NCBI GenBank assembly: GCA_020055645.1
Contig: CM034547.1
Span: 34,850,909-34,914,908 of the forward strand
DNA: 64,000 bases
Source of the DNA: Tomocerus qinae
Lineage: Eukaryota; Arthropoda; Collembola; Entomobryomorpha; Tomoceridae
Reading direction: 5' to 3'
The translations under genes were made by a program, and so were the position numbers. Positions 8,501 through 43,116 of this stretch are shown here, in pieces. How positions within the stretch are numbered: the first letter of the stretch is position 1; each line of letters opens with the position of its first letter. Under the pieces are notes generated by a model. That model ran no database searches, was not told the DNA's origin, and worked only from the letters and a program-made list of their open reading frames with translations.

Positions 8501-11500
8501 CGAAGGCAATAAAATCGTATAAACATGATAAAAGGATTAATGAACCAAATAGAATACCCATGAAAGAACAGATAAAATGTGTACACAGAAATTGAAACAT
8601 GTTGCTATTTCGCGAGGTGGTGTTTGTTGATTCTTCGCTGTTTAAAATTCCATATAGCTCAACAAACTTATTCCCGTGAGTGATTTGCTTACTCCAACTT
8701 TAGTCCTTACTTGTACTTTCCAATGCTGTTTGTAATGTGTTTTCATCCACTACAAATTACGTCCACTTTGTAAATTCCTTTTGCGGTATTTAAAAATTCC
8801 TTACGATGTGATGTATTTAGAAATTGCTTCTACAGTCGTGTCGTACTGCTGATGTGCCTAATAGTGTCACTGCCACTTACAAACGTTTACCAATTCTGCA
8901 ATTTTTCTCATTGATTTTCGACCTGATTAGTGTTTTAGTTAAGACCAAAACGCAATTTTAATTAAATTGTATTCATTTGTATTTATTTTTAAAAAGCAAA
9001 AAGTTTCCCATGCCGGGAATCGAACCCGGGCCTGCTGGGGGCTTTTTTGAGCAACGCTCGTATTGAAAGCCAGCTATCCTAGCCACTAGACCACATGGGA
9101 TTGCTGAAAATATGGGTCTCCGATTGCCTATGATTATCCACGTATACAAAACTTACAATCTACGTCCATGTGTTCACTTCGTTTTATATGAATGCCAAAT
9201 GGGCGTAGACTGTCTGTACAGTGTACAGCACATCATTGCAGCACATGTACATGTGTATATGTATGTGCAGTAGTGTGCTGTGCACTATGAAGAAAACAAA
9301 CTAGTAAATAGGATTATTGTTTTTAATTATTATGTTTCAACTTCAATGTTGAAATTTTGAAACGGCCTTTATTTTATGAATTACAAATCATAAACTTACA
9401 GTTATTACAGTATACTTGTATAAAATCATCTCCAGAACATTAGTTCAACCCAATCCCACATTGCATTGAATGCATTACTTACTCGAGATGCTTTGTAAAC
9501 TCAATTTGTGTCACTATAGGCTCAGCCAGTATTGCATATATGGAGAGTAACTTAATTTAGGCATTAGGTTGCTTATACTTAAAGCTTTTTCAATTTAAAA
9601 ATTTACAAACAGATAGACAATTATAGAGAACATACTTACCGGAAATGACAAAAGATGAATAACGACACCAATAACGCTATCATGGAAAATGCGAGTCCAA
9701 ACATTTCCATCATTCGAGTAGATTTGGCGACTGTGGTAATATACTGAAATTATGAGATAGTTGCTTTCATTTCTTTAAACATTACTTAATGTTCATTTTG
9801 TATCATACATAACTCATATTCTAAGTATGACTAAGGATAACCTATAGAATAGTTTGTGGGACAATGGAAAAAGTCACTTTGTTATAATAATAATCTAGTC
9901 ACTAGTCTAACGTCCAGTTACAGTTCATCTTTCTATATCTTTTTAATGACTTAGATTCAGGGTACTCTCTCTCTCTCAATAGTATCTACTATATATGTCT
10001 CGATCATAGGAATGCTATATTCAATATTTTAAAAAAATATGTAGATTGAATTGCTTATACACATGACACATACGTACAAATTCACAGCTAAAGGTGCTTT
10101 TAACATTCTATCCTATATAGCAATGAAAAATTTTGCTATAATTGCTTTTCGGTTAACAATTTTAGCCACCATCAATTTTAGTCAGGTAAAATAGCCTACT
10201 GGCTACAAATCAAGTTCGTACATTATCAACATTAATGTAACCTAGTTATGCGTTCCTTACTTCATTAATATTTCTGGAGAGATCATCTAAATTCGGCTCC
10301 AAGCATTGGCTATAGTTTGTCCACCCTTTATTCCCGGCTTGTGCTGAACCGTTTCGAGAGAGCCATTCCCCCTTTTCACTACATGTTCGAAATGCAGATT
10401 CTGGTAAAAATACGAAATACATGCACATACATTACATGGTTGATTTAGGTTACATTACATTATGTATCCATTATTACTATTAATCGACGTATATAATACA
10501 AAAAAGATCGCTCCTGTGTTGTAAGTAAAAAGTGCGTAGAATCATCACAAAAGTTCAGTAAGACCTTTTTCAAGAAGTTTATCTGCATGGACTTTAACTT
10601 ACGAGATAGACGTACATTTTACATAAAATGACATGTGGTTAGTATTAGCTAACTAGTAGAGATTCTAGAGATCCGCAATGTTTAAAATAAAGCTACATCA
10701 TTATACCTCCGGAGAGAAGCTGCATGGTTATATAGTATGTAGTAAGGTTACGTGGAACGACTCCAAAGCGGACATCACTCTTTAGAAGACTTCCTCCGAA
10801 AGGACTCTTAATGCCAGCTAAGCTAATAGTATGCCTAGTGCAGCTTCATGATAAAAATCAGCCTAAGATTGCTTAACAGTCAACTAAGTTATTAAAATAA
10901 CAATCACTTTGAACTCGATAATATTGACGAGCCAAGAATAGATAAAATATTGTTTAAACGAAACGTGAATAAATAAAAACAATAAATTCATATCTGACAG
11001 TATATAGAAAACAGTAATGCTTAGAATGAGAATAAATATAAAAGTGATATGCTATACTACTGGTGTGGTGTGCGGATCAATACACATAAACATGAACACC
11101 GTGTGGGTGGCTACTTACTAACCTGATATTGCTCTTTTATTATTGGCCACGGTACGGGCTATTGTTTGTAAAATGTATTTAGTGTGTGTAAACTAGGGAA
11201 TAAATATGCGATTTGTCCCTTCTGCTTTTCATTGCATAATACATATAATACATATAGAGGATTATTGCAAGTCCATCAAATTGAATTCGGCCATGTCACA
11301 TGTGGTTTGTAGATCGGCAAAGTTATCTATCCATTTAGATTGAAAGAAATCTGATCACCTTTTCTTTTCCATGTGTCTCCAGAGAAATGCTGGATATTAA
11401 ATTTAAACAAAGAACAGGAACGCAAAGATGCAAAGAAAATGGGGAAAACCCAGACGCTAGTTCGAATGCATCCTGCACAAGGAACCATTTTTTCCATCAC

Positions 11501-24200: not shown

Positions 24201-26628
24201 TATTTGCATTTCCTTTCATTTATAGTACTCCCAGTTCAACTACACTTTAATACTGTTTTGATATAAAAGTTAGAGAATCAGTTCAGGCGCTTTTGAAGTC
24301 CAATTCATCCGCAATTATCAGTAATGTATAATTAGTAACTTTAGACAACTTCATTACTTCGAACGATCGATTCGGCTCGTTCTCACCTTTTCTACCATTT
24401 CAAATCGAAATTGCGTAGGAAGCTAATTAATTAGCTTTGATTGATGTACAGAATAAATTCTAATAGACCTCAAATAACTATTTCATTGTGGTTAACATCA
24501 ATAGTAATACTAACTAACTACCAATAGCTGACAATATTTCTTTGAGAATAAAGAAACTGGGTTCATTTTATTTTGTTTTCGAAACATAAAGCTTTAATTT
24601 TCATTTGCGTGTTTAGGCAAAATTCATTCTAGCAATACAATTGAAACTTTCGGTGCAAGTACTACAGTAAAAATGACAATAATATCATAACATTGATTAA
24701 TTGAAACAATTTGCACAGAAACATTACAGTACGATCAAAAAGGTAGCTAATATTATTTTCCATAACTATAACGAAAACAATATAAATCCTACAACACTTA
24801 AATTTTGGTGAAAGTACTATTGCAAGCGCCGGAGAAAGTTTAATATGGAGTCAGCATAGGGAAAGTGAAAGTATTAGTTAACTATATTTTTATGTCTAGC
24901 TACGCGTATAGTCGCAACATTTTTATCTCAACGACCATTTAGTCGAATGATTGATCCAACCCTAACAAAACTTTGTATTTACAATACAGATCATGAAAAG
25001 CGAAATCATACAATACAAGAAAAAAGGCATGGCTGTTTGGGTTATATAACCATTCTATCATAATCATAAGTTTACATCTAACAGATTCGACGACATCACA
25101 TCTTTGTTTAGTTAGTGAACCCGAAGATGTAATCGAATTTCGTGAATGGCTTTTTAATATACAGGGTGGTCCGGAAAGAACTAGAATTATGGTTGTTTGG
25201 TGAAAGCAAAAACATTTACCGACCAATTTCCTATCAATGTACCTAGTATTGTAGTGGGCATAATTTATGTTTTAAAAATGACCATGACCGCTATTTTAAC
25301 AAGAAGCGTACTTTAAATAGATTCTACTTATAGATTCATATCATAATGTTTGGTAAGGGGTTCCGTAATGCACTCAAAGTGTTCCCATTATCAAAGAAAA
25401 GTTTAGCAACATTACTCTGGCAAACAATTTGTGTTTTAAGCACCAGAACCAGTACAGCCAATTTTTAGATTAATTACGCGTCGAGTAATTGGGTATCGAC
25501 GGGAGTGTGGGGAAATTATTACAGTCTACGGTTCTTATGGCCTGTGACATATATATGCATGAGGCGATGTAAGATTGGTTTACTCCATTCGAAGCCAAAA
25601 TCAAAAGTCTTCGTCTTCCTCTCTTCTGTAATGCTGTTACTGCATAGCCTGTTTTACAACGAATGCCTTTGGGATGTTTTCTGTCATTTCCTTTTTATCA
25701 TCAAAGATCACGCACGTGCTACGAAATGTACATTTAATAATAGGCAAAGGGCAAACTTCTCCTTTATCCTTTATAAGAAGGTCGTTTCGTCTAAGAAATG
25801 TTACTATATATGTATGTCAGCAAGTGGCAGCCATAATATCTAGGTTCACTTGTTACGGTTGTGGACAGTGGTAGATAGCTTCGTGATAAATACTAAAATG
25901 GAACATGTTATCTGTCTGAGGTTGGCGGATTCTCAGGTTTCATCGTTGATGTTAAAATTGCTTTCTCCCAACTCCTTCATTTGAAATCTCTTATACAATT
26001 TCTATCAAGCTCTCAAGCGAAGCATGTTACTGCAATTACCAAGGCTTCTGACACCAGAACTGACAAAAGCAAAAGGGAAGACCCTTGGATCATTTCAGTT
26101 TGAGCACAAACGAAATTCGGATTCATCTCAAAGCAAATTCCCACAAATATTTCATGAAACTTTCCTAAACACATGGGTAGAAATTCCAAAAAGTCTAATC
26201 TTACAAACTGCATAGTTTGGCTTCGTTCACCTTCGCCTACTCAGTATTTGTACCTGTTTGTACCTTCACAACGATTACGTCTACTTTTAGACATCTCCTC
26301 TTAAGATTGTTAATAACACTCAACTTGGCTTACTTGAACCGTGAGGCTAAAAAATACGCGGAGTTGTAAAAACTGTTTTATTGAGCTGTTGAATACAAAG
26401 TACAAAATAGACTAACCTTATACTATAAATCAACTACATAAAACATAAATTCAATAGACAAGGGCCATATACATATACCATGTCGCTACAATTTACAATC
26501 ACACAACGCACATATATAATATTCTCAATCTTCTCTTGTCATAAACCGCATATTATAACAATGGTACAGTTTTGACAATAACTTACTGAAGAGTAATTTA
26601 AAATTTTACTGGGTTTGTTGAAAATCTT
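15201..26628. other. 11.4 kb without recognisable exons
   Basis: Only short chance frames occur on both strands. A loose inverted pair (GGCTGGTGGCTAAAAT near 17352 and ATTTTAGCCACTAGCCGG near 17420) suggests an old foldback. The first exon of the PDF-receptor-like gene should lie here or be lost in it. Strong isolated minus-strand donors (for example CTACAG|GTAAGC near 17975) exist, but no matching reading frame does. Confidence 0.5.
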
Positions 26629-26805
26629 TCAGTCATCAAGCTTGCAAATCGCAGCGTGATCAATCAAAGTTACTAGCTCATAGAATGTTTCATTACACAA
26701 TGGACATGATGCTGGTTGTGCACCTAAGTCTGAGTTCAGTTGTAACCGAGGTCTCGAAAGAATTTCTGCTGAACTTGAAAAAATCCCATTGTCCTCCGTA
26801 TTGGC
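26629..26805 (-). CDS. Second C2HC zinc-finger terminal exon (duplicate cassette)
   Basis: The acceptor is TTCTAG, phase 0. It encodes 58 residues ending in a C2HC finger, CPLCNETFYELVTLIDHAAIC, given here as Cys-x2-Cys-x12-His-x3-Cys, followed by KLDD and a stop. The spacing equals that of the vertebrate optineurin/NEMO finger. It is equivalent to the finger exon at 29609-29764 but diverged. A possible polyadenylation signal (AATAAA, minus strand) lies at 26377-26382. Confidence 0.7.
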   Translation of the reverse strand, partial: ANTEDNGIFSSSAEILSRPRLQLNSDLGAQPASCPLCNETFYELVTLIDHAAICKLDD

Positions 26806-27128
26806 CTAGAACATACAACAGCTTTCATCAATTTTTAATTAAAATTTTATAATTCTCAATGCGCGTTCATTTTAAGACCAAACAAGATATTTCTAAGGAG
26901 CAAATCATGACCGTTTTATGGTATTGTGATATTGGGATAAGGAATCAGGGTCAGTATTACAGCACTTGTAAGCTGAAGCTATGGATTATGAATGAAATAA
27001 AGTCGACTTTTTTCAGTTTTTCCTATATAAACGAATATGAGCCTATACCTTAAGTATCCCACGTAATGTTGAATTATGATAGATTATGTATATATACTAC
27101 TACATTAATAAAGTGTTGAAATACTTAC

Positions 27129-27201
27129 GGAATTAATTTTCAGCATTTGAAATCGAGATGTAACATTTTCTGTCAAGTGGTCTGCAGACGAAGCTTCTCT
27201 C
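27129..27201 (-). CDS. Linker exon of the duplicate NEMO-like cassette
   Basis: The acceptor is CCCTTGCAG and the donor GTAAGT. Reading AG|G AGA GAA from the previous exon gives REASSADHLTENVTSRFQML, then KINS. It is 73 nt, takes two bases from the previous exon and ends in phase 0, as the final finger exon requires. Both other frames stop inside the exon. Confidence 0.6.
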
Positions 27202-27685
27202 CTGCAAGGGACATTTTTATAAACAGTGAGATTACAATAAAATGAGCCCACATTTTATGAACAAAAATTCCTATTGGGTAAAATTATAAAGACCGAACGC
27301 GTTAGACTGTGATACCATTTACCATGCCATAAAAGGAGAGCCGACCCATTGCTACTATTGTACAAGTACATGTCACCAAAATTATAGTTAAGGTCATTTT
27401 TAATTCTTATAAGGTTATTTTTAAGTTATATAAAGGTAACTTAACATATCTGTCCTAATTCCATATGAAAATTGTCACAACTTTCATTTCGCCAGTTCGT
27501 ATAATGATTAATATGTTTGTGTTTGCGTGTACCAATATACATTCTGGTGAAAGTACCGGTGAAAGTACTATATTAAGTTACCCAAAATTCTTGTAGTATT
27601 AGTAAGACAGTATGACACACACTATGACTACAGCCAATCTTGAAGTTACCTTTTCGTAAATGTATTATTTGAATGTTATACATGC

Positions 27686-27867
27686 CTTTTCAAAATCTCC
27701 TCAAACCGTACATCCTGTAATTTTTTAATTTTATTCTCCTTTGACTGCACCTCCCACTCCAATTTTTCAATATATCGTAAAGCGTCTTCTTTTTCTTGAA
27801 CAACTCGTTGATAACTGGCTGCCGAAACCTTATAATCACTTTTGTAAACTTCATCTTCTTGACAAGG
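27686..27867 (-). CDS. Second, diverged UBAN-type coiled-coil exon
   Basis: The acceptor is TTTGTTACAG. It encodes EDEVYKSDYKVSAASYQRVV and more coiled coil, ending EEILKR. VYKSDY and the terminal LKRHV (if read through) resemble the YKADF and RKRHV ends of the vertebrate NEMO UBAN helix. The E-R...R-E ubiquitin-contact residues seen in the exon at 31531-31709 are absent. The donor that keeps the frame is AAAAG|GCATGT, a GC-AG intron. Start phase 0, end phase 2 and length (182 nt against 179 nt) match the first UBAN exon, indicating an ancestral duplication. Confidence 0.65.
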
Positions 27868-29608
27868 CTGTAACAAAAAATTAAAAAGGCGAAGTCAATA
27901 GGGCTGTAAAATTAACTTTTGTTGCATTTATTAAATATGTTTGTCAATATTACAAAATTATTTGACCCATCTACTAATGTCAAAAGATTTTGTTGTAAAT
28001 GCGCTCACTATTAGACTCCCAAAAGGCACTACATAAAGATATAAGGATACATGGAAGGGGAAATAAGGTTGGGCCCGTAAATGGGCAATAGGCATTCGAA
28101 TGTAATTATATTTTAGCAATTGACTCTTCCCTTACCAAGGGGGCGCAACCAAAAATAATGTAAAAATAATACATTTGCAATTTTTGGAAAAAATCAAATC
28201 CTCTCTCTTTCTTGGATTTAGGGGGCATTACCCCCCCCCCTCCCTACTGGATACGTGCTTGTCTTATCAATCAGTTAAATGTAGAGAGAGAATGCTTTTG
28301 CAATAGTAACATTTACCAATTTTTAGATTAATATTGTATTTTTCATAACCTAAAGGAAGCGAAAATAAGTAGCGCTATATAAAGGTAATAATGATAATCA
28401 TTACAATCGCAATACCTTTAATGGAACAGAATACAATTTATTATTTTATTGACCTATATCCATGGGCTAATGGCACAACGGGAACTCATGATACATAATT
28501 TACATTGGTTATATGCTAAAACATATCATCAATTTGTTATTTATATTTTATATCATTAATTTAATTTATAATCCAACAAATAAGTGCCTAGTTTATTTAT
28601 TTTTGAAATTATGGTAAGTAAACCCATCCCACTGGATTATTAGAATTTTGAATCCTTATGCCTATTGGAGTATAGCACGGCCTATACACTCATATAATTC
28701 CGTGCACTTAATTTTAATTAACATGAATTCAACTTATGTCAAAACCGTAGCTTTGTATCATGTATTGTATATGTTGATATTTTGTAATTGAATTTTTAAA
28801 TTAATTGTGATTTTTTAACTATATTGAAAACAAAAATGACGTCAGTAAATTATAGTTCATTTCATAAGTCATAACTTCAGTAAGTGCATCTTAAAATTAC
28901 AAAGTTAAAGTTTAGAAATAATTTTATATATGTTATTATTATTGTAATGATTTATTTATTTAACATCGAGATATTGAATTTCCATTAATTATTGCACACT
29001 TAAATACAACCTACATAACATAAAACATTCATGATTATGACGTTCAATCGTGGTAATTAATTGCGATTAGTTGGTTGATTAATACTAATCGCTTTTTTGG
29101 AGATTATAATAATCGCACTAATGCTATCAGAATAAAATGGATTTTAAATCCTATTTAATACACTGAAAATAGGGAATTCAAAATTTAAATCGTTAGTTAT
29201 TTTGGTTAGGTACGTACATGCATGACTTACATGATAACCAGTCAATTATAACCATGAGTTTAATCCGCTCATTTAGCCATGCAAATACTCTATACTGTAC
29301 ATTGTACAATAATTAATTTGCACTATTCGTACTAAAAATCTACATGAAAAATCGGTTACGTAAGCGCGGAATCCTTAAAATTTCAAAGATTACATTAATC
29401 ATAAAATGTTCAATACCTATCCTTATCATAGTATTTATTATTATTATTATATTGCACTTTAACTAAATTATCGGTAGCTGTAACACTGTTAGCACTTTAA
29501 CTAAATAGTTATCCGCGACTGTAACTCTGCTAGCACTTTTACTATATATACAACAAAAGGAATTTAAACGACAGAACGACACGCTTTTTAAGATCATGGC
29601 CATCTAAG
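27868..29608. other. Non-coding gap between the two zinc-finger cassettes
   Basis: It is AT-rich and has no exon-like frame, so the downstream cassette has no visible 5' exons of its own. A minus-strand AATAAA (29434-29439) about 170 bp after the stop of the main isoform is a likely polyadenylation signal. A run of ten C at 28231-28240 follows a degraded repeat-like stretch. Confidence 0.5.
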
Positions 29609-29764
29609 CTATGGGAAAACGAATGGGTCAGTAAATCCCATGCTTTCAGGTTCCAAACCACACATCGCGGCGTGTTTCTGAAGCTTAGATATATCACCAA
29701 AACTATTTTTGCCACATACTGGACATGGTGGAATTTCCGGTTCTCTTGATGAAGCAATGTTGTC
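29609..29764 (-). CDS. NEMO/OPTN-like exon 9 (C2HC zinc finger, stop)
   Basis: The acceptor is TTGTGTTTAG, phase 0. It encodes 51 residues with PPCPVCGKNSFGDISKLQKH then AAMC (Cys-x2-Cys-x13-His-x3-Cys), ending FTDPFVFP and TAG. The finger is of the NEMO/optineurin ubiquitin-binding type, with one extra loop residue. Confidence 0.85.
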   Translation of the reverse strand, partial: DNIASSREPEIPPCPVCGKNSFGDISKLQKHAAMCGLEPESMGFTDPFVFP

Positions 29765-32700
29765 CTAAACACAAAGATAATAATTAAAATGAAATTGGTT
29801 AACTTACACCGATTTTCTAAAAAAAACGGTACTTACATTGGATACTCTGGAGCTTGATGAAGCTTGGGAGTCAAGGTTGGCAATCTCATCATCTCTAAAT
29901 AATTAAAACATACTTTTACAGGGTTTATGTATATGTTACAGATTTAATCATTCTACAAATTGGAGGAGTCAAGTGCAGCGTACAAATACACATAATTATT
30001 TAAACGACATTTCTTTGCTATAATTTTTTTCCATTGAAGCAGTAATTCAATCAATATAAATCTCGTGCGACTACTTTTTGGCTTATTCAAGAGCTAATCA
30101 TTAATCATATATTATTTCATTTTCATTTCTAATGTAGGTAATAATAATTAATACCAATACTTACACATAAATACTTATATAATTTGAGAGGAAGATTTGA
30201 GACAAATTAATGCAAACTTAGCTTTTAGAAAGCACGGTGAAATGAAATATTATAGACACAAGACACAATCAATGCACACAAAACTACAAATAGCATGAAT
30301 TTTACACGATAAGAAATGTCTTACCGAGATCCAAATATATCATGTTTGATAAATTCCATGATTTTATTAGGGGAAAACATATTCCCTAATATCTTTGTTG
30401 GTGAAGACGAAACAGGAGTAGGAGATATACTGTTACGCTCACATAAACTGACGAAAGGTTCAATGCTGTTAAAATTGGGAATAATGGAATAAATCTATGC
30501 TTCAACATATAATACAGCAACACTTCAAACAATCGATCTTAATGAAATAAAAATTGTTATACAAGCCGAATAATATAGCTTCAGAGTTTGTAGGTTGACA
30601 AACGCGAAGCAAAATTACATGTAACATGGTAAATTTTTAAGACAAAATTATTAAATACCAATAATATCAAACAAACTAAAAAGGCCAAAGATTTAAAGAT
30701 TTAGAAAAGATTTAAAAGATTTTTGCCATCATCAAATGATGGCAAAAATCTGTTAGTTCACATTTGACTGTTTTTTCTACTTTCGACCTATAAAAATCCT
30801 TTTCTTCAAGAATTAAACCAGTCAGAAATCAAATTAAAGAAAGTTAAAGGTCAATTACATTATTTTACATATTATAAACTAAAAATAAGCCCGTCTTACG
30901 GATGTGAACGGGGAGTAATATTAAAATATCAAATCAACATATTAATAGTGTACCAAAAACATTGTTTAACCAAACAATGAAATTTTTCTATGAAAATGTT
31001 TAAAGTCCTGTTAACAGCGCCTGATTTTCATAATAATATGAATATGATCATTCATTTAAGCGCAAATATGACTTCTTTTGGCCACTATTATTTGTTCCAA
31101 AACTGGGAATGATTTTTACAAAATTTTGCATACTGAGAAGAAAACATAATTTCCACCAGCGAGTAAAAAATTCAAAGCAATGTAATGGTATTTAGAGGTA
31201 CTAGTACAGCTATTATTATAGCGATATTAGTATACCTACTAATAATATACGCCCGTGCTACCATATAACCCCCGCGTCAAATCATTAAAGCTTTTTGTCA
31301 GTCATATAAGTAGTAACATGATAAAAAATGGACTAGAAGTGCGAAAATTAACCACAATACCTTTGGCAAACGAAAAGGGGAAAACATAAGATCTCCACAA
31401 CACTGATCTCTTGTGTCATACATACACAAGAACCAATTGGACAAATTGCATTTGATTTGGATTTAGAAAATAAACACGAACAAACCAGAACTAACACAAA
31501 ACCCCTCCTTTAAAACATGATTTGTCATACCTGTTAACATGTTCTGTAGCAAATGTCAAGTGTGTTTTATGTAAGTTGTCCAACTCATTTTGACTTAATT
31601 TTAGTTCTTCTTTCAATGAACTTAACTGCAGCAGCAAAAGCGATTTTTCTTCCTCTACTTTCGATCGATTTTCGCGTTCTGTCAAGTAATCTAACCGGAA
31701 TGCTTCCATCTAAAACAGAATAATTTATTTATCACCTAAAGTTAGTAAGCTATTGTTCCATTCCAAAGATTCACAACATATTCAGTAGTTAATATGAATT
31801 GAGTAATAATTTGTAAAAAAGTAAATATTAACAACCTCCTGCTTCAAATTAGCAGCTTGTTCATTTTCTGCCTTCATTGCAGCAACCCTAGTAGTTAATA
31901 AAATATTTTCATTTAGGGATTGCCTCAACTGATGTTCCAGCCGCGTTACTACGCTGTTAGTAGTTTCCCAATTCCTTTCCATGGTTAGATTGATATCGTT
32001 AAGGTTCTCCAACTTCAGGCGTAAATCTTCAATTTCTTTTTTCAGAGTCTCTATTTGTGCATCTTTCCTTAGCAAAGTTTCTTCATATGTCACCTTAGTC
32101 GACTCAAGTTCTGTCCTAATCTTCTCCAACGTCAACTCATTTTGCTCTCTCTCTTTTTCCCATTCATCTTTCAACATTGCCAAGTCTGTATTTATTATTG
32201 GTTGTACTTCAGTTGCTTTTAGTTCTTGCTCCCGGAGAAGCTTTTTAAGTAATTCCGTTTGATACTTTTCTTCATTTAGTAAGGCTTCATTTTCTTCCAA
32301 TAATGTTTTCAATCGTCGCAGAGAATCGTCCTTTACCGATAATTTTGCTTCCAAACTCTTAATAAATAAATAAAAATTTAAAGCCACACCCATCTATCAT
32401 AATTCTGTAGTGGACAAATAAATTCAAAAAAGTACGAATTATTATTCAAATTAATTATTTTGGGGCAATTGAGCTTCAAAAAAGAATTTAGCTTCTTCCT
32501 CAACAATTGCACTATACGTGGAAAATTTGAAGTGGTTTACGTTGAAATTGGTGCTCGCAATGAGCTACATTATGGTATCATGGAGCTCATTTGGCTGCAA
32601 AAACATTGGAATACTAAAACTAATTTGCACAATTGATTTGTAAAACCACAAAATATTTTGCAAATGAGTGTAATAATAAACAATATAAAATGGCATGGTT

Positions 32701-35239
32701 GTCAATTGAACAACGGTAGTACAGTATGAACTACAAACCATCCAACCAAGCCATCCATGACTGTGACAAGACACTTCGATTCCCCATTCGTTAGAGTAAA
32801 ATATAAATGAGGGAGCAATTACTAACTTTTAGTTCATCTTTGGTGACGGTGAAGGTTGAACCACTTAGTAATGACATCGAATCCTCGGTTTCTTGCAATT
32901 TCATTTGACCTTCAAGAACTGAGATTCGGGATTTTAATTGTTCCTTTTCTTCACGCAACTAAAATTTAAAATTAAATCTCAGTGGAAAATGAAGTTATAA
33001 TATATGAATATGAATATATGAACTGTCCATACACCACATGAAGTTTGTTCATGAATTCGTACTCAATATTCATTGTTTTTCTCCTTTCATCCCCATAATT
33101 TTCTTCAATATATAAAAATTTTATTGTCACAGATAATAATACGATTTCTTAGAACACCAACCTTCAACACCAATTGCTTGCTTTCTTCGTGTTTTTCTTT
33201 GTCTAGTTCGTGTTGTTTAGCAGCATTAGCTTCAAACGCTCTCCAGGTTTCTATGTTTCTTTTAGTTAGTTCGCGATTTTTTTCCAATTGGCCTAAAAAT
33301 GAATTATTAAACAAAATTTACTCATTCTTAGACCTAGACGTGGTCTGCATAAATATAAATAAATAATTATCAATTTTCAACCCATTGAGGGTAGGTTTGA
33401 TATTTTAGTATTTTTAGTCTTTCTCAATCTCACGTTTTCTCAAATGAAAATCAAAATTGCTGGGCTAAGCATTGAGCACACCATATCTGTCGAATACCTA
33501 GACTGTATTATAATAAAGAATAATGTCAATTCTTTGGTTGCAAGTTGTAAGGGGATCATTAATTTTGGGAGAAAGGATTGTTTCCAAATAATCAGTTTAT
33601 GAGTTATTGCTCATTTTGGATCTAGGACATAAAGGCCACTAATGCCCAAGGTAATATAAAAACGAATCCAAGCCCGGATGCAGACTACATTATAGCATTC
33701 TGTTTATGGCCACAATAAGTTTTTTCATAAGTCAAAATGAGTTTCCTTAATCCCACGCACGCTCGTCCCTGTTTTTTAAAACGTATTCTATTTTATACTC
33801 AATTTTAGACATGTTCAACAATTTAGTTTGAACACGAATATGAAAGGATCATATTATTTTGGTTCATAGGTGGAACGTAAATGAAATTCATAATCCAAAC
33901 AATCTGTATCTGTAGTCCCAAGGAGTGTCAACAGTGTCAACCAAGGTTAAACCCAACCAGTTAAAGCTCCTTGGGTATACCCAAGGAAAATAGAATATAA
34001 TATACTGAGAAGCAATGGTATATTATTCGATTTATTGGGGGTTCGGAACAAGTGAGGAAAAATTACATGACTATAGCCGATCCCTAATTCCCCCCCCCCC
34101 ACTTAGGGATCGGCTAGATGTAAATACACACTCGCCAATGACGTCATTGGCGAGCTTTTCCCACTCACTTTTCATTTTTCCATAGGGATCTGCACCAGGT
34201 TAGGTATACCCAAGGAGCTTTAACTGGTTTATGTATCCCTTGGTTTCTCTTTGGCTGTTTTTTCATAAGGAGGGTTCAGTCAGGCACTTTGCGTGAATAT
34301 CTATAAGGGACGTTTTTCGTCCCTTATCCGATTGTTGCCAATGACAACTGGTAGGATTTGTCCCTTATAGATATTCACGCAAAGTGCCTAGCTGAACCCT
34401 CCTGTTGAAACTGTTGACACTCCTTGGGTATACCTACATCGAAACCTTGGCACCTGGGTTTATCGGGTACCCCATCCAGCCTTCAGATTCAGACGGCTAC
34501 TTTGGTAAGTACTCCCCTCTATGAAAAGCCGAGGTTTCGGGGTTTTCGGTGTATGATATCACTGGTAGTACCCTACCTTCAGACCGTGCCGTTTGATAAT
34601 ATGATTATCTGAATATACAGCTAAATCTTTGGATTCTATCGGTACTCGATGCCATAGTATTTTTTTACCTTTTAGAACTTGATTTTCTTCTGTGAGATGA
34701 GCAACTTGGTTTGTCGCGTTATCAAAAATAGCTTCAGTGCTTGAATTGGACAAAGAGGACCCATTTGTGGTTAACGAAGGGTTATCGCCTGTTACAAAAC
34801 TGGGTGTTAGGGATTCCGCTAAAGAAACAGTGGAATTTGCAGCACATTGAACTGATGCCGGCAAAGATGTTTGGGCTTCCATAATTTTCCTTACTTCTTC
34901 GGGAAGTAACTGCCATAGTACAACATGTAAATTAAAACACATTTTATTATTTTGCTACGTATTGGATGGACCATTTATACTATAACCTGAATTAGAATTT
35001 AAAGAAATACAGACAGCGGTGAAATTTACCTCACATGGAGAAGGTGTTTCTGTTGACTTTTCTGATTTTATTGACTGCCCTTGAATAGCATTTTCGCCTA
35101 CGGACTCATCAACTACATTTTCGCCTTCAATCTCGTCAACTATAATATGTTCGTTGGGTCCAACTTTACCGATCACCATAAACGAACCATCTTCATAACC
35201 GTCGTCGTCCGTTAATTCTTTCCAATCTGGTCGGTTCAT
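29609..35239 (-). CDS. NEMO/optineurin-family UBAN adaptor (Kenny-like), 589 aa
   Basis: Proteins of this family bind linear or K63 ubiquitin chains. NEMO/Kenny scaffolds the IKK complex in immune signalling, and optineurin and Kenny also act in selective autophagy. Nine exons are joined in frame: 35030-35239, 34669-34909, 33162-33292, 32827-32958, 31836-32357, 31531-31709, 30325-30465, 29837-29894 and 29609-29764. In order they give an acidic N-terminus with a LIR-like GSFMVI (residues 18-23); a coiled coil resembling the N-terminal NEMO/OPTN helix (LTEENQVLKGQLEKNRELTK); a long central coiled coil; UBAN (DYLTERENR, about 419-427); a Ser/Pro linker; and a C-terminal C2HC finger (Cys552, Cys555, His569, Cys573). 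The length is close to human optineurin (577). I cannot decide between NEMO and optineurin orthology from sequence alone. Confidence 0.85.
29837..29894 (-). CDS. NEMO/OPTN-like exon 8 (short linker)
   Basis: The acceptor is ATTATTTAG and the donor GTAAGT. It encodes RDDEIANLDSQASSSSRVSN and ends in phase 0. Confidence 0.72.
30325..30465 (-). CDS. NEMO/OPTN-like exon 7 (Ser/Pro linker)
   Basis: The acceptor is TTTTAACAG and the donor GTAAGA. It encodes IEPFVSLCERNSISPTPVSS and a short helical stretch (NKIMEFIKHDIFGS). SPTP is a possible phosphorylation site. Phase 2 at both ends. Confidence 0.75.
30717..30751. repeat. Perfect 16-bp hairpin with 3-base loop
   Basis: AGATTTTTGCCATCAT, then CAA, then its exact reverse complement. 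It lies in a NEMO-like intron. Probably a foldback remnant. Confidence 0.55.
31531..31709 (-). CDS. NEMO/OPTN-like exon 6 (UBAN ubiquitin-binding motif)
   Basis: It starts MEAFRLDYLTERENRSKVEE and continues EKSLLLLQLSSL. The D-Y-x-x-E-R-x-x-R...E-E-K spacing matches the UBAN consensus that contacts linear diubiquitin in NEMO, optineurin and TNIP proteins. It starts in phase 0 and ends in phase 2 (AACAG|GTATGA). Confidence 0.88.
31836..32357 (-). CDS. NEMO/OPTN-like exon 5 (long coiled coil)
   Basis: This 174-codon exon, phase 0 at both ends, is almost entirely heptad-patterned, from SLEAKLSVKDDSLRRLK to NEQAANLKQE. It is the longest exon of the gene and precedes UBAN directly, as in NEMO CC2/CoZi. 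Confidence 0.85.
32827..32958 (-). CDS. NEMO/OPTN-like exon 4
   Basis: This 44-codon coiled-coil exon is phase 0 at both ends, with acceptor AATTTTAG and donor GTTAGT. It begins LREEKEQLKSRISVLEGQ. Confidence 0.8.
33162..33292 (-). CDS. NEMO/OPTN-like exon 3 (N-terminal coiled coil)
   Basis: The acceptor is CATTTTTAG and the donor GTTGGT. It encodes QLEKNRELTKRNIETWRAFE and further coiled coil. The L-x-x-x-N-x-E-L and W-x-A-F pattern resembles the helix that binds IKK or TBK1-type kinases in NEMO and optineurin. It ends in phase 0. Confidence 0.8.
34131..34154. repeat. Perfect 24-bp palindrome centred on TGACGTCA
   Basis: CTCGCCAATGAC followed by its exact reverse complement. The centre is a CRE-type octamer. 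It sits inside the nested foldback, so it may be transposon structure rather than a regulatory site. Confidence 0.6.
34268..34403. mobile_element. 136-bp foldback inserted into the older foldback
   Basis: AGGAGGGTTCAG...GGCACTTTGCGTGAATATC at the left end is repeated in reverse complement at the right end, giving ~44-bp arms with very few mismatches. It lies between the middle and outer right arms of element 33917-34428, which implies later insertion. Confidence 0.75.
34669..34909 (-). CDS. NEMO/OPTN-like exon 2
   Basis: The acceptor is TATGGCAG. It encodes LLPEEVRKIMEAQTS, a Ser/Thr-rich stretch, then the start of a coiled coil (AHLTEENQVLK). The donor is AAAG|GTAAAA, phase 1. Confidence 0.78.
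35030..35239 (-). CDS. NEMO/OPTN-like exon 1 (start codon, LIR-like motif)
   Basis: It starts MNRPDWKELTDDDGYEDGSF and has donor GAG|GTAAAT, phase 0. The F-M-V-I core preceded by acidic residues fits an Atg8-interacting motif. The exon is strongly acidic overall. This ATG is the only plausible start. Confidence 0.8.
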
Positions 35240-36390
35240 TTTTGAATTCTTTGTTCTTGGCTACAGGATTCACTCAAAAAAACTGTAAAAACATACAATT
35301 ATCAAAATTACCATAAACTACAATAAAAAACTAACCATCAGCCGTCAACTGATTACAAGCTAACCAACTCGCCTTTTAAAGTCAAAAATTCCCCATTTTA
35401 AAAATTGTTTTTTGTTAATTTTGGATTCTTTTTCGGAATACTATATTCAAATATAATAGTACAAGGCTGAGGGTCAATGGCAAAAAAATAATTTTTTACT
35501 TTTCCTACGACGTTTTTAATGACGATGCGCAACCACGATCATATGAACATGAGCTGAAGACTACAAACAATAGCAAAGTTTTGTAAGTTCCGCAGTAAAT
35601 AAGCTGTAGACAAACAGGCATTCTATAAGTATCGAATCATAGTTTTGTGGTAGGAGTTGATCATTACTATTAGATAAACGTATATTGGGACATGCACATG
35701 GAATTGTGTCGGTATTCTTGTATATAAGTAGTAGAGTATCTAATGTCTTTTATATAAGTACGATGTATGCATGTCCGTATCCTTGTCGTCCGTCCTACGT
35801 CCTCAAAACGACAAATGAGAAAACGCAACATCATTGTCAAATCGTCATCAAAACTTGTCTTTATTTTTTATATTCGGTCATTCTATTTTATATACATTTC
35901 CTTAGTCAATTCTTTAATGTTAATGTCAAAAAGTTTATTTAATTCAGTCCAATTAAAATGTAGCATCAACAGTACCATAAATACCTATTCAATAGTGTCA
36001 ACAAGGTTAAGCTCTGTTTTAGCTGTGGTTTTTTTCGGTTTTTAACAAATATGCAATGCTACGACAATACTCATCTATTGGAGTGAAAATGTTTTAGCAA
36101 CAGAGACATACAGAGAGAACATAATAGAGAAAAAATTTTTTAAAGTTTGCTCCGGTTGGAATTTCGGACAGACAGCTGGACTGCCAGACAGCATGACAGA
36201 GGAAAGCTAATAATAAGTCCTATACCCGTCACCAGTATGAGTGCATTAAGTGAGTCATACTCACACTGCCACTACTCATTCGCATTCGCAGCATGCATTA
36301 TGGATGGATAAAAATTTGTAGATTAGATATGGATAGATATGATAAAACTGTGGCATCATCCTCATCAAGCACAATGAGAAACAAAATTAA

Positions 36391-38005: not shown

Positions 38006-38494
38006 TTACTTTAGCGTCCTTTTTGTTTCGAGATTTCTTTTTGCGTCGAAGTATCCTGCTTGATACCCAGACATGTACCAAGATAATAGTAAAGCTGGCA
38101 GTTCTCCCTTATCATAATTAAAACTGCCATCGGGAGAGGCAAGAGATGCAGGCATTGGTGGAACGGGAAAATTAGGCATGAAGTTAGACATATCCGAATT
38201 TTCATTTGCTGCATCACACATGAGGGATTTTCCACAAACAGGGTCTCTTTTTGAAGTACAGGTAACTGGCTTTTGATTTATCAAGTCTTTAGATGAATCC
38301 GTAAATGTAATGGTAGAAAAATTGTCACTTATTTCTGAAATATTTCGCTGTGACATGTCTACAGGAATCCATGGCCCCGGTCCAGGTGTTGGAGAAGTAG
38401 CGTTATCTTCGATTTTAGTCTTTTTCCACTGTTTAACTGCCTTGTCATATGCGCGTATAAGCTCAGTATCGTCCCATACATCATCTTCAGATAA
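38006..38494 (-). CDS. Smn: SMN exon 2 (Gemin2-binding helix to YG box and stop)
   Basis: The acceptor is AAATTCAAG. The single exon carries WDDTELIRAYDKAV near its start and SWYMSGYQAGYFDAKR near its end, in one uninterrupted frame of 162 codons plus stop. A 116-codon frame beginning at 38356 is simply its downstream part. Confidence 0.95.
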   Translation of the reverse strand, partial: LSEDDVWDDTELIRAYDKAVKQWKKTKIEDNATSPTPGPGPWIPVDMSQRNISEISDNFSTITFTDSSKDLINQKPVTCTSKRDPVCGKSLMCDAANENSDMSNFMPNFPVPPMPASLASPDGSFNYDKGELPALLLSWYMSGYQAGYFDAKRNLETKRTLK

Positions 38495-39262
38495 CTTGAA
38501 TTTAATAAAAGAGGAATTGAGAGATTATTATAATAATATATAATATATCATCAAAAACAATAATAAAATAAAATTAATCATCTTTAAATGCAGAGTTTAA
38601 AATTATGTAAAGGTATTGTTACATTACGCTAACATGTCCGTACAGAAAGGATAGGAGATTTATACTTGCTATCCTTCTAATGCAAACAAAGTTTCCATAG
38701 GGTTAGATTTGTCGCCAAGTCAGTCTGTGTTAAAATTGATTTAAACCTGTGAAAGCTATGTCACACCCTACTGCCCCGTACGAAAGTCATTTTGGATATG
38801 ATCTCTAAGCTGTTTCCATAGGGCTGTAAAATACAGATCAAATTTGTAAACTTAAATGGAGATTGACCAATTAATGTTTTCAATAATGTACCCCAATGCA
38901 TACCTCCGTGTACTAAATTTAGCACATGAAGGTATGCATTGGGGTACATCATTGAAAACATTAATTTGATCTGTTTTTTTACAGCCCTATGGAAACAGCT
39001 TAGAGATCATATCCAAAGTGACTTTCGTACGGGGCAGTAGGGTGTGACATAGCTTTCACAGGTTTAAATCAATTTTAACACAGACTGACTTGGCGACAAA
39101 TCTAACCCTATGGAAACTTTGTTTGCATTAGAAGGATAGCAAGTATAAACCTCCTATCCTTTCTGTACGGACATGTTAGCGTAATGTAACAATAAAGGGA
39201 CAGGGACAACGGATGACGGAGTGAAAACTTACATTTCTTTCACTGATCGACGCCATTACCAT
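38006..39262 (-). CDS. Smn: Survival motor neuron (SMN) protein, Tudor-less, 172 aa
   Basis: SMN oligomers with Gemin2 assemble Sm rings on spliceosomal snRNAs. There are two exons, 39233-39262 and 38006-38494, joined in phase 0. The N-terminus MVMASISERN runs into LSEDDVWDDTELIRAYDKAV, the conserved Gemin2-binding helix. After a short Pro/Gly stretch (SPTPGPGPW) comes a Ser/Asn-rich linker, a proline patch (PNFPVPPMP) and the C-terminal YG box ALLLSWYMSGYQAGYF. The central Tudor domain that binds dimethylarginine of Sm proteins in human and fly SMN is missing. There is no intron between helix and YG box, so splicing cannot restore it. A second in-frame ATG lies at 39254-39256. SMN is divergent from NPRL2. 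Confidence 0.94.
38614..39194. mobile_element. 581-bp foldback filling SMN intron 1
   Basis: TATTGTTACATTACGCTAAC at 38614 onward is the reverse complement of the sequence ending at 39194, and the match extends inward along ~240-bp arms with small indels. Possible target duplications are TA (TA|TTG...CAA|TA) or AAGG. The 96-bp palindromic MITE (38870-38965) occupies the centre. The element takes up about 79% of the 738-nt intron. Confidence 0.85.
38870..38965. mobile_element. 96-bp palindromic MITE, copy 2
   Basis: It differs from 36391-36486 by about two bases and has the same length and TTAA boundaries. It sits at the centre of the 581-bp foldback, so it is either an insertion in the loop or the core from which the larger element grew. 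Confidence 0.8.
39233..39262 (-). CDS. Smn: SMN exon 1
   Basis: Ten codons from ATG (MVMASISERN), donor AAT|GTAAGT, phase 0. Translation may instead begin at the third codon (MASIS), giving 170 aa. Confidence 0.85.
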
Positions 39263-40716: not shown

Positions 40717-43116
40717 GTAATAGCCTCTAGAATGGTGCTAGTTGGATTATATTATTATTCTATTACCATAATCTAGTAATAGCCTCTAGACACTAGCAGA
40801 CAAGAATGAAGGGCATAAAATTGCGATTGGAATGCAGCAAGGAAAAGGAAAGGATCATGTATTCAGTATACATTTTAGTCATTGCTTATTTGTAAAATTT
40901 AATATGGTTTTTGTTTTGTTTTTTATTAAAAAATTGTTATAGGTCCGATACGGGCAATATTTTTAAGCGAATTTCATCACATAGCGGGACCGAAAATAGT
41001 TTTTCAATATCCACCGGATACCATTTCGAAAGAAATATTTGATGCTGTTTCGACTTACATTATTCCTAAGACACATTTGCAAAGACTCACTATGACTGTA
41101 AATGTATTAGGAAAGAAAATCATTGGATTTCCCATTCAGATCAAAAATGATAAATACGAAAGAAATGCGTTTTATTTCAATACATGCTTTGTTTGTGACG
41201 CCTGGGCAAGAACTGTGCAATATGAGTCTGTTTTGACTAAACTGGCAGAATTTTTTAACGCCTTGGAGGTGGAAACAGAATATCTATCAAAAAATTCGAC
41301 AATGGGGCCCAATACTGAAAGAGAATTAGAAAATGTTTTCGAAGCAATTATTTCTGGTCTAAACGGCAGTCTTCGTGAATGTTCAATTGTTTTTCGTGAG
41401 CGGTTATTGAAATTGAAAGTGGTACCGGCAGTCCTTAGTGATCCTCCTCAAGTTGAAAACCATCAAGTTCCTGTTTTCATAATGGATGTGAATCCGATTG
41501 AAAAGTGGGACCTTACCACGCAGCAAATTATTCCCTATGTCGACGGATTTAACCACGTTGTTAAAATAGGTAAAAAAGGATCTTCGGTTTTTTAAGGAAT
41601 GATTAAGGAACATTTATTAAGATTGACAACTACTAAAACTACTTCATGGTTTGCTCTGCTGCTATCGAAATTAAAAGCTTATGGATGATGGATGCTACCT
41701 GTGCTTGCCAGTTCTCACTTAAAAACAAGTAGTGGTAGTAGTAGTTAATTGTTAGTTTATATCCTTTTAAAATATTTCACATTTGGTTTGGTACTTATGG
41801 TGAATGTATTTGTTTACTTGCAGGGTTCTTGGCGGATGTTGATACTAATTTAGTGAAAGTTTGTTTGCAGAATTTGTTATACTATCGAGTTATCAAGTTT
41901 ATTCCCATATTTCAGTATAGTAATACGTACTGTACTACCCCAGAAATCCATTCAAAACTGATTATGGGAAGTACTGCTTTTAAAGCGGAATGTACTTATA
42001 TTGTATCCAGGACCGAACACGTAAGGAGTCTCAAAATAGTATATATACCTAGTATTATAAGTATTAATAAAAATTTCTGGTCTCAGTTGAACACTCCGTA
42101 GTAAGCCAATGTTAGGGTACAGATTTCGAAATTCGAAAGTCTCATTACGATTGTACTTCACGCTGCTTCACCTCGCTCGTATAATCACCAATTATTTATG
42201 ATATTTGTTATTGCTATATATTCGTTGTTACGAATAATTCAAACATACAAGAAACTACATTGATTATTGTTTACGTACGTGTGCATAAGTCTAACGTCAC
42301 GTTTTATACGCAAATGTGCAATTCAATAAAACTAAACTTTCTTTTTAAATAATTATACCTTAACTGTTAACTTTTGTTACTAACTATTAACCTTTATTTT
42401 TGTCCTAATCATTAAGGAAATGTTGTCTAGCAATAACATGATTGATTTGATTTAAACGGAGGTATGTGGTTTTTAATATTGTTGAATAAGGTGATTAAAT
42501 ATTTACTTCTTTTTATCTGTTACAGACAAGACCAAATTTTGCTGATGTTGTTCGATTTTACTGTGGAATGAAAAGAGGTGTGACTATAAAAGAACTTTGT
42601 TGTAGATTCAGAACAGTTTCAGCAACTTCTACTACAACGAATCGTTCATTGTCTTTAGACGGCTCTAAATATGGATCCTCAAAATATAGTGACCATTCTC
42701 TTTCGTCGTCTACACAATCCAGGACATCATCAAATCCAACGACGCCAATTAAACTTAATTTCCATCCAGCAACACAGTCTTCAAAATCGTCCGAATTCAA
42801 ATCCATATCCAGTGTAATTGACGAAAGACGCTTAGTTTTGTTTGGTCTTGTGCATGGCATTATTCGTCGCATTGAAAAGTATCCGATTCTGCAATGCAAT
42901 CTTCAAAGAGTGCCATATCATATTAGTACTGGGTTTAACTACGACAGTGAAAGTAAGGATCACTGGTTGCAATATAGGAAGAAATACGAATCTTTGTATA
43001 AGATGTTTGATGGACAACATACATTCGACCAGATTTGTTTAGCCCATGAACTATCACAAAGTCAATTAGATGATATGGTAGAAAGAGACCCTGATGTTGT
43101 TAATATTTGGAAGTAA
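40632..43116 (+). CDS. Nprl2: NPRL2, GATOR1 complex subunit, 499 aa
   Basis: NPRL2 with NPRL3 and DEPDC5 forms GATOR1, the GTPase-activating complex for RagA/B that turns off TORC1 at the lysosome when amino acids are low. The exons are 40632-40716, 40943-41569, 41824-42020 and 42526-43116, all joined in frame. Conserved strings are FLSEFHHIAGPKIVFQYP, YERNAFYFN, WDLTTQQIIPYVDGF, LLYY, FQYSNTYC and VIDERRLVLFG. Arg102 in YERNAF aligns with human Arg78, the GAP arginine finger. The protein is longer than human NPRL2 (380) because of a ~29-residue acidic N-terminus and a Ser/Thr-rich insert at about 332-398. The frame is open upstream of the ATG back to an acceptor-like TTTCATTCAG at 40581, so an upstream coding or 5'UTR exon is possible. 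Confidence 0.94.
40943..41569 (+). CDS. Nprl2: NPRL2 exon 2 (longin-like N-terminal domain)
   Basis: The acceptor is TTGTTATAG and the donor ATAG|GTAAAA. It contains the N-terminal longin-type domain with the predicted arginine finger, and ends within WDLTTQQIIPYVDGFNHVVK. Confidence 0.94.
41824..42020 (+). CDS. Nprl2: NPRL2 exon 3
   Basis: The acceptor is TTTACTTGCAG and the donor GTAAGG. It encodes FLADVDTNLVKVCLQNLLYY and IPIFQYSNTYCTTPE and ends in phase 0. Confidence 0.93.
42526..43116 (+). CDS. Nprl2: NPRL2 exon 4 (C-terminal winged-helix region, stop)
   Basis: The acceptor is ATCTGTTACAG, phase 0. It contains ADVVRFYCGMKRGVTIKEL, a ~66-residue Ser/Thr-rich insert, then DERRLVLFGLVHGIIRRIEK and the conserved end DPDVVNIWK. 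Confidence 0.93.
   Translation, partial: TRPNFADVVRFYCGMKRGVTIKELCCRFRTVSATSTTTNRSLSLDGSKYGSSKYSDHSLSSSTQSRTSSNPTTPIKLNFHPATQSSKSSEFKSISSVIDERRLVLFGLVHGIIRRIEKYPILQCNLQRVPYHISTGFNYDSESKDHWLQYRKKYESLYKMFDGQHTFDQICLAHELSQSQLDDMVERDPDVVNIWK

Follow-up and report, generated by a model that had tools for sequence, protein, structure and literature searches.

Gene A1 and a second UBAN-finger set on its 3′ side

The DNA analysed here is a 64-kb stretch of the Tomocerus qinae genome (GCA_020055645.1, CM034547.1:34,850,909-34,914,908, forward strand; "the window" below means this whole stretch, and positions are counted within it), in which the minus strand carries a complete gene, here called A1, followed on its 3′ side by three further exons that we refer to as tail B. 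A1 runs from 35239 to 29609, with nine exons, 589 codons without a stop and GT-AG boundaries at all eight introns, and the layout of its predicted protein is an N-terminal motif, SFMVI, resembling an LC3-interacting region (LIR), followed by coiled coils, a UBAN and a zinc finger. Exon 1 (35030-35239) contains the start codon and the LIR-like GSFMVI at residues 18-23, behind acidic residues, and ends in phase 0; by its sequence pattern the motif is a putative LIR. Exon 2 (34669-34909) is supported by its codon score, as are exons 3 (33162-33292) and 4 (32827-32958), both of which are of coiled-coil type and end in phase 0. The long coiled coil of exon 5 (31836-32357) leads into the UBAN, and the exon ends in phase 0 at the donor GAG/GTTGTT, where the slash marks the exon boundary. 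Exon 6 (31531-31709) encodes the UBAN, with matches to optineurin D474, E478, R479 and R482, and is followed by exon 7 (30325-30465), which is in frame (phase 2 to 2), by the linker exon 8 (29837-29894), which ends in phase 0, and by exon 9 (29609-29764), which encodes a C-x2-C-x13-H-x3-C finger and the stop codon, behind which an AATAAA begins at 29439. When scored leave-one-out, eight of the nine exons have codon scores of 0.08-0.29 bits per codon; the score of exon 7 is negative (-0.09), and of the last three exons it is exon 7 that has no counterpart in the paralog A2 described below. Exon 7 may be an optional exon or no exon at all, and because it is doubtful the A tail may consist of exons 6, 8 and 9, corresponding one for one with the exons of tail B. 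Two repeats lie within the gene: intron 2 contains nested inverted repeats (33912-34436; 51-nt arms, 92%) resembling a foldback mobile element, and the 3′ untranslated region contains a tandem repeat of about 40 nt (29454-29548) directly before the AATAAA.

Tail B, also on the minus strand, begins with exon B1 (27686-27867), which is UBAN-like (EVYKSDYKVSAASYQR...) and ends at a GC donor (AAG/GCATGT); B2 (27129-27201) is a linker of 73 nt (phase 2 to 0), and the terminal B3 (26629-26805) encodes a C-x2-C-x12-H-x3-C finger and a TGA, with an AATAAA beginning at 26382, so that each tail has such a hexamer behind its stop. From 27867 to 26629 the three exons form a single continuous open frame of 143 codons, and given the local stop rate, 142 codons would be free of stops with a probability of 2.2e-5. 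In a codon model trained without any B sequence they score 0.26, 0.29 and 0.12 bits per codon, respectively, and among the stop-free segments of the window B1 ranks tenth by a model likewise not trained on B. The start phases of B1, B2 and B3 (0, 2 and 0) are those of A1 exons 6, 8 and 9. An earlier note on this DNA had described a second UBAN-linker-finger set lying 3′ of a complete gene, and this is borne out by the open frame, the codon usage, the phases and the homology discussed below; on re-reading of the sequence all of its exon coordinates hold, and we confirm that the two UBAN exons are of similar length (179 nt in A1, 182 nt in B), each running from phase 0 to phase 2, and that both finger exons begin in phase 0.

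The splice sites of tail B are consistent with functional exons, with one departure from the canonical form. All three acceptors have an AG after a pyrimidine-rich stretch (8-11 pyrimidines in 15 positions, with 8-11 also in the A1 acceptors). The first B intron needs a GC donor rather than GT, because a GT donor four bases downstream (CAT/GTATAA) reads B2 in frame with a stop and was rejected. Donors were scored with generic site frequencies, leaving position 2 of the intron unscored, and the B1 donor has the best flanking bases of the ten scored (5.2); its flanks also place it in the top 0.5% of 1963 minus-strand GC sites. In human, nematode and Arabidopsis, genes that undergo alternative splicing show an enrichment of GC donors (PMC2490688). 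Other acceptors for B1 were rejected, as an upstream AG ending at 27904 brings a TGA into frame, and AGs 10 and 13 nt within B1 are in the wrong frame for a phase-0 donor.

Family assignment and age of the two tails

The PF16516 (CC2-LZ) profile matches the A1 UBAN with its exon 5 context at 27.4 bits (E 4.7e-6), below the curated cut-off of 35.3, and the full-length protein at E 2.1e-4. In the PDB the best match to A1 is the ATG16-1 coil (E 0.0039), with optineurin UBAN chains next (E 0.09-0.17), and no Pfam finger reaches its cut-off for the C-terminal finger, though the C-x2-C-x13-H-x3-C spacing is present. The N-terminal, IKK-binding NEMO domain PF11577 is not among the families matching A1 at E up to 5, and its profile finds nothing at E up to 1 in the species' own genome (the 334-Mb assembly of 115 contigs, searched in six frames here and below), in a search where one control genome gave matches; because PF11577 is detected neither in A1 nor in the genome, we do not call A1 NEMO proper. 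Used on the genome, the PF16516 profile gives one match, A1 exon 6 (E 0.07, below cut-off), to which we attach little weight, as two bacterial controls also matched. The pattern at the A1 N-terminus is the same as that of ESFVVL, the LIR-like motif at residues 27-32 of Tenebrio TmIKK-gamma (PMC7555931), and Drosophila Kenny has an N-terminal LIR (PMC5668318). With Kenny and the insect IKK-gamma proteins A1 has in common this N-terminal pattern, a coiled coil, a UBAN and a C-terminal finger. Since Kenny is described as fly homolog of both IKK-gamma and optineurin (PMC12962666), A1 is best named an arthropod Kenny/IKK-gamma/optineurin-type adaptor of autophagy and signalling. The TmIKK-gamma gene differs from A1 in having a single exon rather than nine, and the accessible text of PMC7555931 makes no mention of a second UBAN-finger set such as that of the A1 locus.

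The two UBANs align with a score of 51, shuffled sequences averaging 27 (p about 0.002, which is somewhat generous as the shuffles keep composition and not heptads), and alignment of the two fingers also gives 51, compared to a shuffle mean of 18, with none of 2000 shuffles as high. A tblastn search across the window is by itself not significant (E 0.09 for the UBAN and 0.8 for the finger), and we make the claim of homology because order, strand, adjacency, phases and open frame are taken together. B1 is UBAN-like by position, alignment and motif, and not by profile, and its best match in the PDB is TRIM63 at 0.28. The B3 finger has the spacing of optineurin (C-x2-C-x12-H-x3-C) and matches zf-C2HC_2 at E 0.0013, below the cut-off; it is modelled with a beta-beta-alpha fold, with a predicted local distance difference test score of 83-85 over residues 31-50 (mean 66.5). 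The NEMO finger 2jvx aligns to this model at 0.7 A, ranking 21st among other C2H2 fingers and with no match at E up to 0.001, and the model does not distinguish a NEMO/optineurin finger from other C2H2 fingers. Among the repeats of the 26300-35300 region (the 20 largest of 41 direct families and the 25 longest of 95 inverted pairs) there is no long DNA match between the tails, as is expected if the copy is old. The inverted pairs that span exons 6-9 are weak and A+T-rich (for example I7, 71%).

Queried with the A1 protein, the genome yields 15 matches of E up to 1 among 35 candidates scored, nine of them in A1 and six in the paralog A2, which is located on another contig (C1, 27009033-27011839) and has counterparts of A1 exons 1-6, 8 and 9 in the same order. 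A2 exons 3-6, 8 and 9 are open when joined. In exon 2 the frame is broken in the assembled sequence, which may reflect a weakened gene or a local misassembly. Over exons 3-9 the two genes share 203 of 373 aligned residues, with a synonymous divergence (dS) of 0.78 and a nonsynonymous divergence (dN) of 0.29. No B tail accompanies A2: in the 19 kb around it a B query finds A2's own finger (E 0.045), the A2 coil (0.34) and weaker noise. Nor is there a second B elsewhere in the 334 Mb at E up to 0.001, and the two weak matches at E up to 10 (5.75 and 6.12) are taken as noise.

Comparison of the three tails provides clues to their relative ages. From the second cysteine to the histidine of the finger there are 12 residues in B, as in human optineurin, and 13 in both A1 and A2; and of 36 positions compared in the UBAN, B agrees with A1 at 9, with A2 at 6 and with human optineurin at 11, while A1 and A2 match each other at 21. 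Because its finger spacing and its serine at the position of optineurin S473 are unlike those of A1 and A2, B probably split off before A1 and A2 parted, although a fast-changing B could in part mimic this pattern. The duplicated cassette of the earlier note stands as a homologous set, which seems not to be a fresh tandem copy of the A1 tail. Neutral drift was simulated with today's B sequence as the starting point, no indels and 0.39 substitutions per site (half of the A1/A2 dS); B remains open in 0.0008 of 20,000 simulations, and intact splice bases contribute a further factor of 0.007. Since drift would rarely leave the frame open for that long, it is probable that B has been kept by selection for most of the time since the A1/A2 split, if B predates it, through whichever transcript.

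The same considerations bear on the possibility that B is a fresh remnant, that is, the tail of a third gene copy that was active until recently and has lost its 5′ half, with the GC donor as its first splice lesion. Such a history would account for the missing 5′ half, the non-canonical donor and a dispersed repeat that lies just upstream, and A2 is a sign of copy turnover, with what looks like a break of the frame in its exon 2. It is difficult to reconcile with 142 stop-free codons, an AG at all three acceptors and intact codon usage: even at 0.1 neutral substitutions per site the probability of an open frame is 0.055, to be multiplied by 0.35 for intact splice bases, so the loss of the 5′ half would have to be recent. 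The flanks of the GC donor, among the best of all minus-strand GC sites, also speak against decay, and we regard a remnant as quite improbable.

Possible sources of 5′ exons for tail B

B1 contains no in-frame ATG, and there is an in-frame TGA on its 5′ side. In the 1566-nt gap between A1 and B1 (27868-29433) the best minus-strand coding segment scores 4.7 bits, while 54 control intervals have a median of 6.4, a 95% value of 9.0 and a maximum of 17.2, so by codon score the gap holds no coding segment above background. A scan for B first exons (an ATG leading to a phase-0 GT donor scoring above 2, together with codon score) found three candidates. Two of these share a donor at 28136 and were rejected, as they lie almost wholly in a dispersed repeat on the minus strand (28139-28261), which covers 28139-28228 of the longest (28136-28228) and has at least 45 listed matches in the genome, itself included (40 of 376 candidates scored). 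The third is an ATG exon of two codons with a fair donor (29218-29223). No third 5′ half turns up in the genome either, each of the 15 A1-protein matches listed (E up to 1) belonging to A1 or A2. For all but tiny or untranslated exons, the proposal that the second set has no separate 5′ exons agrees with what we find both locally and genome-wide, and because no 5′ half for B was found in the gap or elsewhere, A1 is the likeliest supplier of its 5′ exons.

B could nonetheless form the 3′ portion of a small gene in its own right, with a short or untranslated first exon in the 1.6 kb gap or elsewhere and a UBAN-like/finger product that would lack the LIR and the long coil. Its own stop and AATAAA, the complete appearance of the A1 3′ end and the two-codon ATG exon are all compatible with this, and the extra residues PCQE at the start of B1 indicate that the introns before B1 and before exon 6 do not sit at exactly the same place. 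We consider a separate gene unlikely, as the gap lacks coding segments above background, the longer ATG exons sit in the dispersed repeat, a third coiled-coil half is not found in the searched genome, and a UBAN with no preceding coil would be atypical of the family.

If A1 does supply the 5′ exons, B1 requires a donor of phase 0. Exon 5 ends in that phase, as the earlier note pointed out, and so do exons 1, 3, 4 and 8; exon 5 is the natural partner of B1 because B1-B2-B3 mirror exons 6-8-9. Of the ten donors scored, that of exon 5 is the weakest (-2.1), which would suit a regulated choice, but this is only suggestive because the A2 exon 5 donor (GAG/GTGGTA) is likewise non-consensus. A join of B1 to exon 8 is also open, giving 681 amino acids with exon 7, and B would then replace the final finger exon to produce a protein with UBAN-A followed by UBAN-B and finger B. 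It has the attraction that exon 8 ends in phase 0 and that skipping one terminal exon would suffice. In this family, though, the CC2 coil leads directly into the UBAN, while exon 8 is a short loose linker, and B1-B2-B3 correspond one for one with exons 6-8-9; we believe this arrangement to be very unlikely.

Because two homologous, open and phase-matched tails are found at the locus together with one set of 5′ exons, we favor, with a confidence somewhat above even, the explanation that B serves A1 as an alternative 3′ end of long standing, which would give the gene a second C-terminus. Judged from its sequence, B is a real second UBAN-linker-finger set, probably old and maintained by selection, and no separate 5′ half was found for it; the interpretation of one gene with two tails is partly supported. 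Several points weigh against it. The B UBAN is not matched by PF16516 at E up to 10 (we note that the HMMER filters drop many weak matches), and with the exon 5 context its sole family match is Fib_alpha at 0.023. The GC donor would also fit a decaying splice site; eight further AATAAA hexamers lie between the tails, and such hexamers are weak evidence. Phase is a weak argument for exon 5, since five of the eight internal A1 donors (exons 1, 3, 4, 5 and 8) end in phase 0, and joining exon 5 to B1 adds PCQE, with its proline, where the A1 coil continues, breaking the heptad in a simple scan of our own. A two-codon or untranslated first exon for B is compatible with the scan described above, and the drift argument presumes that B split before A1 and A2 and ignores indels.

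Ubiquitin contacts and predicted roles of the two tails

In human optineurin, residues D474, E478, R479 and R482 touch linear diubiquitin close to the point of linkage; the E478G change does away with linear-ubiquitin binding, and a TBK1 site lies at S473 (PMC4999505). A1 has L-D at the equivalents of 473-474, E, R and R at 478, 479 and 482, and a serine at 483; A2 has L-N at 473-474 and E, C and R at 478, 479 and 482. B has S-D at 473-474, with E478 replaced by S, R479 by A and R482 by Y. The earlier note had B lacking the E-R...R-E contacts, which is correct for E478, R479, R482 and E483; the loss is not complete, as S473 and D474 are retained in B, and position 483 is a serine in A1 itself. 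We therefore predict that A1 should read linear (perhaps also K63) ubiquitin chains, and A2, less surely, linear chains, while linear-chain binding of the usual kind is not expected of B, because the equivalents of optineurin E478, R479 and R482 are absent.

With B as an alternative 3′ end of A1, the choice would be made at exon 5. In one transcript exon 5 would be spliced to exon 6 and the message would end behind the AATAAA at 29439, giving tail A; in the other the transcript would pass the 29439 site, join exon 5 to B1 and end behind the AATAAA at 26382. Both proteins would share the LIR and the dimerising coil and would differ in the ubiquitin-reading part, tail A binding linear (perhaps K63) chains and tail B either directing the shared N-terminus to another ligand or serving as a ubiquitin-blind partner in mixed dimers. 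We advance more tentatively, and with less than even confidence, the idea that through this switch of a three-exon 3′ block the gene encodes its own ubiquitin-blind (E478-less) form, so that LIR/coil dimers would be steered to ubiquitin-tagged cargo by tail A or to another ligand by tail B, and the B form would be a normal-regulator counterpart of a human amyotrophic lateral sclerosis (ALS) allele. That allele is optineurin E478G, which B resembles in having a serine at 478, so that its natural state is like a loss of that residue (PMC4999505); it differs from the E478G protein in that R479 and R482 are missing as well, with S473 and D474 retained, and in that it would be an extra tail rather than a mutation.

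The closest working precedent for such alternative C-termini is ALLO-1 of C. elegans, where one LIR-bearing autophagy adaptor gene makes two proteins, ALLO-1a and ALLO-1b, that differ at the C-terminus and prefer different paternal organelles as cargo (PMC10874384). The ALLO-1 isoform-specific tails are of 34 and 48 residues, and neither "UBAN" nor "zinc finger" occurs in that paper, whereas the tails of the A1 locus are homologous UBAN-finger sets. Tandem duplicated, alternatively spliced exons such as U2AF1 exons 3/Ab are similar in that homologous coding exons are used one or the other (PMC5224494); the A1 locus would differ by swapping a block of three exons that includes the terminal exon and its poly(A) site. 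The literature searched, from which subscription papers were mostly out of reach, gave no description of a NEMO, Kenny or optineurin gene with a duplicated UBAN-finger cassette. If both tails are used, a single adaptor gene would pick between two ubiquitin-reading ends via splicing, and in a natural system the LIR/coil function would be uncoupled from the reading of ubiquitin. The optineurin E478 lesion would then have a model in normal physiology, and ALLO-1 would be joined by a second example in which alternative C-termini set the choice of autophagy cargo.

Other features of the window include a survival motor neuron (SMN) frame on the minus strand (38006-38524), with the Gemin2-binding and YG-box domains in a single open reading frame, and plus-strand coding segments of NPRL2, a GATOR1 subunit, at 40930-41595 and 42499-43116. 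Two minus-strand tRNA genes of 86 and 96 nt (8338-8423 and 9005-9100) are perhaps intron-bearing; one is called as Ile(AAT), and the other has an odd four-base anticodon call. Tandem runs of TTAGG, taken as an arthropod sign, are present in the genome: an 8-unit pattern has 143 overlapping matches in the forward and 136 in the reverse direction, and none in the controls.

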